Assembly: GCF_003999195.1 (NCBI RefSeq)
Contig: NZ_RJVR01000309.1
Span: forward strand, 1-64,000
Length of the DNA: 64,000 nt
Origin: Streptomyces soli
GTDB lineage: Bacteria > Actinomycetota > Actinomycetes > Streptomycetales > Streptomycetaceae
Direction: 5' to 3'
Shown here: positions 13,931-59,300 of the stretch, one piece after another
How the letters are laid out: every line of letters begins with the position of its first letter
Numbering within the stretch: position 1 is the stretch's first letter
The notes under the pieces: model-generated
The model's input: only the letters and a program-made list of their open reading frames with translations
Database searches by the model: none
Told to the model about the DNA's origin: nothing
Translations under genes and position numbers: made by a program

Positions 13931-14021
13931 CGCAGACGACCCGCGGGCTGCTCCCCGGAGCGACGAGCGCTCCGAGCACCGGCCGAACGAATCCGGCGAG
14001 CCCGCGGGTCGGATGACTGCG
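13931..14021 (-). ncRNA. Structured RNA candidate downstream of a 12-codon ORF
   Basis: Nested inverted repeats: CGCAG/CTGCG (13931-13935 and 14017-14021), a perfect 12-bp stem GACCCGCGGGCT/AGCCCGCGGGTC (13938-13949 and 13999-14010), and inside it a perfect 7-bp hairpin CGGAGCG-ACGAG-CGCTCCG (13956-13974) plus a weak CCGG/CCGG stem (13979-13996). Together these make a branched fold. On the minus strand it follows a promoter and tiny ORF and points into the 3' end of pdxH. It may simply terminate both transcripts, but the multi-stem architecture is richer than a terminator needs. Confidence 0.45.
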
Positions 14022-14068
14022 TTGGATTTGGCCCGTCGCGCACAGCGCCACAGGCAAGGTGCGCGGCC

Positions 14069-14107
14069 TTAGCCCGCAGCCACCTCACGCGTCCGAGTGC
14101 TACTCAT
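14069..14107 (-). CDS. 12-aa small ORF with an extended Shine-Dalgarno sequence
   Basis: ATG at 14107 reads MSSTRTREVAAG and stops at TAA (14069-14071). AAAGGAGGTGG at 14116-14126 matches the 16S rRNA anti-SD almost completely, with 8 nt to the start codon, which is unusual for this genome. A consensus-like promoter lies just upstream. The peptide has no obvious function; it could be a leader peptide whose translation controls folding of the downstream RNA. Confidence 0.45.
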   Translation of the reverse strand: MSSTRTREVAAG

Positions 14108-14140
14108 TCTCGGGACCACCTCCTTTCGTGTGTGCTCGAC

Positions 14141-56765: not shown

Positions 56766-56831
56766 CGGCCCGAAGGGTCTCGATGAGGGGTGGCGGTCGG
56801 GCGACGGGCGGGCGCAAGCGCCAGAGCAAGC

Positions 56832-56870
56832 GTCAGGGCCCGCATCCCGGGATGGGATGCGGGCCCTGAC
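56832..56870. terminator. Long perfect hairpin between groEL and the cold-shock gene
   Basis: GTCAGGGCCCGCATCCC (56832-56848) and GGGATGCGGGCCCTGAC (56854-56870) form a 17-bp perfect stem with a 5-nt loop. It insulates the groEL promoter from read-through of the upstream cold-shock gene. Confidence 0.75.
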
Positions 56871-56897
56871 GTGTGAGCGATGAGCGTTGAGCGTGTT

Positions 56898-56953
56898 TAG
56901 GGCCCGTCCGGCCGATCTCCGCGACGTCGCGGAGATCGGCCGGACAGGCCCTA
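56898..56953. repeat. Bare palindrome equal to the terminal arms of the composite elements
   Basis: AGGGCCCGTCCGGCCGATCT plus CCGCGAC (56899-56925) is followed directly by its near-perfect reverse complement ending GGCCGGACAGGCCCT (56952); 26 of 27 positions pair, with no loop. The arms are those of the composite element at 35672-35887, without any insert. It sits just after the cold-shock stop codon and probably works as a terminator. Confidence 0.7.
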
Positions 56954-57601: not shown

Positions 57602-57880
57602 TCAGCAGCCGCCGGCGACCGCCGGGATGATCGAGACGCTGGAGCCCTCGGTGACGGCCGTCTGGAGGCCCTCGGAGAAGCGGACGTCGTCGTCGTTCAC
57701 GTACACGTTCACGAAGCGGCGCAGCTTGCCCGTGTCGTCGAGCACGCGGGCCGAGATGCCCGGGTGGTTCTTCTCCAGCGAGTCGATGACCTCGGCCAGC
57801 GTCGCGCCCTCGGCGGGAACCTCGGCCTGTCCGCCGGTGTACGTACGAAGGATGGTCGGGATGCGGACGGATGCACTCAT
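57602..57880 (-). CDS. MoaD/ThiS/CysO-type sulfur-carrier protein ending in Gly-Gly-Cys
   Basis: 92 aa beta-grasp (ubiquitin-like) protein: SVRIPTILRTYTGGQAEVPA, LAEVIDSLEKNHPGISARVLDD, LRRFVNVYVNDDDVRF, then VTEGSSVSIIPAVAGGC. It closely resembles mycobacterial CysO, which ends in AVAGG and carries sulfide as a C-terminal thiocarboxylate for cysteine synthesis. Here a cysteine codon follows the Gly-Gly before the stop. The start overlaps the thrC stop codon by 4 bp, so it is cotranslated with thrC. No activating E1-like or JAMM protease gene is near. Confidence 0.85.
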   Translation of the reverse strand: MSASVRIPTILRTYTGGQAEVPAEGATLAEVIDSLEKNHPGISARVLDDTGKLRRFVNVYVNDDDVRFSEGLQTAVTEGSSVSIIPAVAGGC

Positions 57881-59157
57881 ACGAGGCCAGCCTCTCGGAA
57901 CGCGGCAAGGGTCGGACGGATGATGGCGGACGGGCCGGTGGTCGGCGCGACGGCGTCAAGGGTCTTGAGGCCGTCGCCGGTGTTGAGGACGACGGTCTCG
58001 GCGGCGGGGTCGAGCTGACCGTTCTCGATGAGCTTCTTGAGTACGCCGACCGTCACGCCGCCCGCCGTCTCGGCGAAGATGCCCTCGGTGCGGGCCAGCA
58101 GCTTGATCGCGTCCACGCACTGCTCGTCGGTGACGTCCTCCACCGCGCCGCCTGTGCGGCGGGCGATGTCGAGGACGTACGGGCCGTCGGCCGGGTTGCC
58201 GATGGCCAGCGACTTGGCGATGGTGTCGGGCTTCTGGGGGCGTACGACGTCGTGGCCGGCCTTGAAGGCGGTGGAGACCGGGGAGCAGCCCTCGGCCTGG
58301 GCACCGTAGATCTTGTAGGCCTTGTCGGGCACGAGGCCGAGCTTGATCAGCTCCTGCAGACCCTTGTCGATCTTGGTGAGCTGCGAGCCGGAGGCGATCG
58401 GGATCACGATGTTGTCCGGGAGCCGCCAGCCGAGCTGCTCGGCGATCTCGTACGCGAGCGTCTTGGACCCTTCGCCGTAGTAGGGGCGCAGGTTGACGTT
58501 GACGAAGCCCCAGCCCTCGCCGATCGGGTCGCCGATCAGCTCGCTGCAGAAGCGGTTGACGTCGTCGTAGTTGCCCTCGATGCCGACCAGGTCGCCGCCG
58601 TAGACCGCGGCCATGACGACCTTGCCGGCCTCCAGGTCGTGCGGGATGAACACGCAGGAGCGGAAGCCGGCCCGGGCGGCCGCAGCACCCACCGCACCGG
58701 CCAGGTTGCCGGTGGAGGAGCAGGACAGGGTGGTGAGGCCGAAGGTGCGGGCGGCCTCCAGGGCGATGGCGACGACCCGGTCCTTGAAGGAGTGGGTCGG
58801 GTTGCCGGAGTCGTCCTTGATGTGCAGGCCGCCGGTGATGCCCAGCTCGCGGGCCAGGTTGTCGGCCTTGACGAGCTTGGTGAAGCCGGGGTTCAGGTTC
58901 GGCTTCTCGGCCACGTCCGCCGGGACGGGCAGCAGCGGCGCGTACCGCCAGATGTTGTTCGGCCCGGCCTCGATCTGCTTGCGCAGTGCCTCGGGATCGC
59001 CGGTCGGGAGGTCGTACGCCACTTCCAGCGGCCCGAAACATTCCTGGCACGCGAAGATCGGCGTCAGTGGGAAACGCTCACCGCATTCGCGACACGACAG
59101 GGCGGCGGCGGGGCCGAAGGCGCTGTCGGCGGCAGTGGCAATGGTCTGCAAAGACAT
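57877..59157 (-). CDS. thrC: Threonine synthase
   Basis: ThrC converts O-phosphohomoserine to threonine with PLP. 426 aa. The N-terminus has two C-x2-C-like pairs (LSCRECGERFPL; IFACQECFGPLEV), the zinc-ribbon-like feature of one bacterial class. The PLP lysine is in DDSGNPTHSFKDRVVAIAL and the phosphate cup is [15 protein letters not shown]. Upstream is an S-box riboswitch; downstream a sulfur-carrier gene overlaps by 4 bp. The two-gene operon thus links threonine and sulfur metabolism. Confidence 0.95.
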   Translation of the reverse strand: MSLQTIATAADSAFGPAAALSCRECGERFPLTPIFACQECFGPLEVAYDLPTGDPEALRKQIEAGPNNIWRYAPLLPVPADVAEKPNLNPGFTKLVKADNLARELGITGGLHIKDDSGNPTHSFKDRVVAIALEAARTFGLTTLSCSSTGNLAGAVGAAAARAGFRSCVFIPHDLEAGKVVMAAVYGGDLVGIEGNYDDVNRFCSELIGDPIGEGWGFVNVNLRPYYGEGSKTLAYEIAEQLGWRLPDNIVIPIASGSQLTKIDKGLQELIKLGLVPDKAYKIYGAQAEGCSPVSTAFKAGHDVVRPQKPDTIAKSLAIGNPADGPYVLDIARRTGGAVEDVTDEQCVDAIKLLARTEGIFAETAGGVTVGVLKKLIENGQLDPAAETVVLNTGDGLKTLDAVAPTTGPSAIIRPTLAAFREAGLV

Positions 59158-59173
59158 GGAGGCGAGGCCCTTT

Positions 59174-59300
59174 CCTCATCTTCCCCGCGACGCATTTCGC
59201 CGCGAGACGGAATTGGCACCTTCCCCACCTGGACCTCGCGGTCGGCGGGAGGGTTGCCGGGGCTTCAACGGGCCGTTCCCTCTGCCCCTCTGGATGAGCG
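59174..59300 (-). ncRNA. SAM-I (S-box) riboswitch of thrC
   Basis: On the minus strand the S-box core is plain: P1 5' strand CTCATC (near 59299), CAGAGGGGCAGAGGGAACGG, TGAAGCCCCGGCAACC, AAGGTGCCAATTCC, and P1 3' strand GATGAG (near 59175). All conserved blocks of the class appear in the right order. The last P1 bases lie immediately upstream of the AAAGGG Shine-Dalgarno, 17 nt from the thrC ATG, so translation is probably the step controlled. The rest of the 59301-59505 gap holds the thrC and gpgS promoters. Confidence 0.9.

Follow-up and report, generated by a model that had tools for sequence, protein, structure and literature searches.

A putative MetO sulfur carrier of Streptomyces soli is encoded with a single cysteine after its terminal Gly-Gly

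The 64,000-nucleotide stretch of Streptomyces soli DNA analysed here (hereafter the window) carries a gene, metO, whose predicted sulfur-carrier product has a cysteine encoded directly after its terminal Gly-Gly. As the best explanation of the whole, to which we give a probability of roughly 0.6, we propose that this MetO-Cys is a pro-form that would be trimmed by the JAMM protease Mec, charged by MoeZ and used by the enzyme MetM, trimming by Mec and the reason for keeping the cysteine being the parts that we infer. The proposal draws on gene order, riboswitch, enzymes and the distribution and conservation of the cysteine, all observed here, and on published accounts for the MetM/MetO reaction and the action of Mec on CysO-Cys.

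Results

The metO gene and its partner metM

The coordinates of the genes and of the riboswitch are collected in Table 1. The 3' end of metO reads GTC GCC GGC GGC TGC TGA, and the only cysteine in its translation, MSASVRIPTILRTYTGGQAEVPAEGATLAEVIDSLEKNHPGISARVLDDTGKLRRFVNVYVNDDDVRFSEGLQTAVTEGSSVSIIPAVAGGC followed by the stop, is the C-terminal one, right after Gly-Gly. The product matched the ThiS family (Pfam PF02597, E 1.2e-19) and its best PDB match was M. tuberculosis CysO (3dwg_C, E 2.4e-30), which stops at AVAGG. An earlier note on this DNA had described an AVAGGC end with TGC immediately before TGA; we confirmed this at exactly 57602-57880 and add that the gene lies on the minus strand, which had not been stated. 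Its view that translation yields a form equivalent to a carrier-cysteine adduct such as CysO-Cys is likewise supported by our reading of metO.

Table 1. Location of the metM-metO features in the window.
Feature	Position	Strand	Basis
SAM riboswitch (RF00162, 83.6 bits), ending 15 bases upstream of metM	59173..59300	-	
metM, PLP enzyme annotated as threonine synthase, 426 aa, lysine motif SFKDR; likely phosphohomoserine-dependent homocysteine synthase	57877..59157	-	profile and literature description
metO, sulfur-carrier protein of ThiS/MoaD fold, 92 aa, ending AVAGGC	57602..57880	-	
Extra Cys codon TGC and stop TGA, straight after the Gly-Gly codons	57602..57607	-	sequence and comparative data

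The metO gene lies directly downstream of metM, the threonine-synthase-like gene controlled by the SAM riboswitch, and the TGA of metM overlaps the ATG of metO (ATGA). The riboswitch was present at metM in 16 of 16 relatives tested. The translational coupling to a thrC-like gene that had been claimed before thus holds for the window, where the overlap exists, but not as a general feature, because only some of 80 relatives share it. PMC12172450, with reference to Hasebe et al. 2024, describes the MetM of S. albulus as a homocysteine synthase that uses O-phosphohomoserine, has a SAM riboswitch upstream and is accompanied by a carrier gene, metO. Since the window has the same gene order and riboswitch, and since the genome holds a separate thrC in a hom-thrC-thrB cluster and a separate carrier gene, cysO, between mec and cysM on another contig (C304), we assigned the pair, by analogy with that account, to homocysteine/methionine synthesis as MetM-MetO, and not to cysteine or threonine synthesis. 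For this pair thrC and CysO are misleading names, and metO of the window does not sit beside mec and cysM, the neighbours by which a CysO gene is recognised.

Taken at face value, the annotation would make the pair an additional threonine synthase and a CysO-like protein serving cysteine synthesis. MetM does score above the TIGR00260 (thrC) cut-off (267 vs 167 bits) and MetO does resemble CysO, but the thrC between hom and thrB encodes a protein just 36% identical to the metM product, cysteine synthesis has its own cysO with mec and cysM, control is by SAM and not by threonine, and the function published for the S. albulus pair, as given in PMC12172450, is a different one; we regard this alternative as highly improbable. 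The tie to the methionine/threonine branch put forward in the earlier note was therefore right, and, judged by the same account, understated: the neighbour matches metM, and it is the other thrC that stands with hom and thrB. MetY with MetX and a MetB-like enzyme are also encoded in the genome (contigs C195 and C10), so the MetM route may be redundant or non-essential in this strain.

Elsewhere in the window, a 56-base near-perfect loopless palindrome (28-nt arms, 96% complementary; 56898-56953) lies in the interval that separates groEL from a cold-shock gene, next to a terminator-like hairpin of 18 nt (56831-56871), and positions 13931-14133 of the minus strand match Ms_IGR-5, an sRNA family of actinobacteria (79.7 bits).

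Distribution of the terminal cysteine among relatives

Among 80 metO orthologues, 39 encoded a GGC end and 39 a GG end, with one GGA and one GGAGA. As these loci had been ranked by likeness to the query, less biased counts were sought in a pattern scan of 395 Streptomycetaceae genomes, 309 of which had the metO motif, the ends being counted in the 150 matches listed. GGC ended 100 of these and GG 49, with 1 ending otherwise; tail-free genes thus made up about a third of the matches listed, and the Cys codon was TGC in all 100 GGC ends among them, as it was in the 39 orthologues ending GGC. The distribution was uneven between genera: among the matches listed, sequences with and without the cysteine numbered 62 vs 3 in genus g14 and 11 vs 0 in genus g3, and 12 vs 18 in genus g9 and 4 vs 24 in the window's own genus. 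More distant MetO-like proteins either lacked a tail or had A, C or a longer one. A single g3 genome (G149) gave two metO-pattern matches, both GGC, which suggests a duplicated metO. We rejected a sequencing error as the source of the Cys codon, since the same codon occurs in three further genomes of the window's genus.

The closest relatives of the window's pair (metM 89% identical in DNA, 95% in protein) end in bare GG. The possibility raised earlier, that close relatives would conserve only the GG end and the cysteine be a chance addition in this strain, was thus borne out in its first part; the second did not stand, as the cysteine turns up repeatedly, is conserved throughout a different genus and is no accident of one strain. 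On a tree of metM DNA (81 rows) the label switches between C and GG 11-12 times, at least 10 of these being forced by well-supported branches, and a metM protein tree gave 12 switches. The window falls in a supported set of four on the DNA tree, and the other three members end GG.

The two kinds of end, GGC TGA and GGC TGC TGA, differ by one unit of a 3-base tandem repeat. We considered whether GG ends had come from a point mutation turning the Cys codon into a stop, and rejected this because TGATGA occurred in 0 of 39 GG rows; with no such remnant, the switch looks like an indel and not a point change. The pattern of switches fits the insertion or deletion of a single 3-base unit (GGCTGA to GGCTGCTGA).

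Such slippage at the stop invites a simpler account, in which the cysteine is an incidental codon, removed by Mec or any carboxypeptidase and having no role of its own. The switches on the metM tree, the GG ends of the nearest kin and the lack of a tandem TGATGA in GG rows all speak for it, as does the fact that duplicating the pre-stop bases yields Cys solely after a final Gly codon GGC, the codon present in 137 of 149 GG and GGC sequences among the matches listed. Against it, 62 of 65 sequences of genus g14 (among the matches listed) keep the cysteine without any substitution, the tail of CysO varies in the same genus, and other residues are rare at this place (1 Ala and 1 AGA among the 80 orthologues). 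We consider this account unlikely, although it is the one among the alternatives that deserves most attention.

Selection on the Cys codon in genus g14

The retention in g14 was compared with the background of change in the same genes. By parsimony on the metM tree, the three positions of the Cys codon had undergone 0 changes in the 57 Cys-bearing g14 genomes, whereas fourfold sites averaged 4.8 changes in metO and 5.3 in metM, and the base after the metO stop had changed 10 times. The codon TGT accounts for 16% of the Cys codons in the same genes of this set. When fourfold sites were resampled, three random sites were all unchanged with a frequency of 0.002. Tails of CysO in g14 were AR (27), MK (16), SR (6) and others among the matches listed. 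The absence of codon changes against some five at fourfold sites, with the CysO tail varying freely, suggests that the terminal cysteine is held by selection in g14, though its full loss is tolerated elsewhere; the test is a modest one, made in one genus on parsimony counts.

Enzymes for trimming and charging, and the tails of CysO

The earlier note had advised searching the genome for mec/JAMM, cysM and MoeZ genes, and all were present. Family searches of the genome gave one JAMM protein, with its HSHx7SxxD motif intact (HSHTATEAYPSRTD), within mec-cysO-cysM, and one clear E1, MoeZ with a rhodanese domain. Mec of M. tuberculosis opens CysO-Cys, and activation requires that the enzyme responsible can reach the carrier's C-terminal glycine (PMC3227635). 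A JAMM protein was encoded in 50 of 50 related genomes, those with GG and with GGC alike; we looked for JAMM loss as a correlate of GG ends and found none among these 50, so the two kinds of end are not explained by whether Mec is present.

Residues after Gly-Gly are also common in the other carrier. CysO had them in 148 of the 150 Streptomycetaceae matches listed, mostly as two residues (AR, MA, MR, MK) and sometimes as 8 or more, and in the window's strain the CysO tail has 20 residues and overlaps the start of cysM (C304; L088:3424-3756). Given that CysO tails are nearly universal and that the E1 acts on a terminal glycine (PMC3227635), a trimming activity must already exist in these bacteria. 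A tail consisting of Cys alone was never seen in CysO among the 150 matches listed; Mec, if it trims those tails, therefore needs no cysteine, which weakens the idea that the residue of MetO is there to mimic a substrate.

Discussion

Under the reading that we prefer, MetO would be made as the pro-form MetO-Gly-Gly-Cys, and its Gly-Cys bond would be hydrolysed once by the chromosomally encoded Mec to leave the Gly-Gly end. MoeZ would then adenylate and thiocarboxylate the trimmed end, and MetM would combine the thiocarboxylate with O-phosphohomoserine to give homocysteine; a MetO-homocysteine adduct, which Mec could open as well, may be an intermediate. Plentiful SAM would turn metM-metO off through the riboswitch. 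A tail of one codon would be easily gained and lost; where there is a tail, Cys would be favoured, a plausible reason being its likeness to the carrier-Cys or carrier-homocysteine adduct on which Mec naturally acts.

A very different use of the residue can be imagined, in which the cysteine is kept: an N-to-S acyl shift at Gly-Cys would form a thioester for conversion by sulfide into the thiocarboxylate, or the cysteine would carry a persulfide, charging being free of MoeZ or triggered by a signal. This would fit the position of the sole cysteine of MetO, exactly one residue past Gly-Gly, and its selective retention in g14, and the chemistry is the known step of CysO-Cys formation run backwards; but close relatives lack the cysteine while sharing the gene order, and the genome encodes MoeZ. 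We rate it as very doubtful, and still slightly more so its specific form, in which MetO of the Cys-keeping lineages would charge itself once or sense sulfide, releasing free cysteine as sulfide makes the thiocarboxylate. The suggestion made earlier that the protein delivers cysteine upon activation is also weak, there being one cysteine per chain and none in the nearest kin. As to the pro-form, a search of the openly accessible literature on carrier-tail processing returned no statement on a terminal cysteine of MetO, which proves little.

Carriers whose genes extend past Gly-Gly, and whose extra residues are first cut off by a JAMM protease, are known from QbsE/QbsD of thioquinolobactin synthesis in Pseudomonas and from HcyS/HcyD of Wolinella. 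The tail is Cys-Phe in QbsE and Ala in HcyS, the JAMM gene lies within the same cluster, and HcyS also serves homocysteine synthesis. MetO resembles these carriers in having an encoded residue after Gly-Gly and a JAMM protein of intact motif in the genome, and differs from them in that its tail is a single Cys and the JAMM gene is located elsewhere, beside cysO-cysM. With CysO, Mec and CysM of M. tuberculosis the window's strain shares the carrier fold, the JAMM protease and the E1 MoeZ, and the CysO-Cys adduct is chemically like the encoded MetO-Cys; in M. tuberculosis, however, CysO ends in GG, the cysteine is added by an enzyme and the acceptor is phosphoserine, whereas the metO gene itself specifies the cysteine, and phosphohomoserine is the probable acceptor. 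Closest is the S. albulus MetM-MetO pair (Hasebe et al. 2024), from the same bacterial family, which, going by its description in PMC12172450, has in common with the window the SAM riboswitch, the threonine-synthase-like enzyme and the adjoining carrier gene. The MetM-MetO system and JAMM-trimmed carrier pro-forms were thus already known; new are the one-residue Cys tail, which toggles often and yet is fixed in one genus, and the near-universal tails of CysO.

These observations suggest that both amino-acid sulfur carriers of the Streptomycetaceae are often encoded as pro-forms, MetO with Cys or nothing and CysO with a short and varied tail. If this is true, Mec is predicted to have a second job in carrier maturation, besides the release of cysteine; carriers expressed without Mec would be inactive, and the synthesis of cysteine would be tied to that of methionine through Mec.
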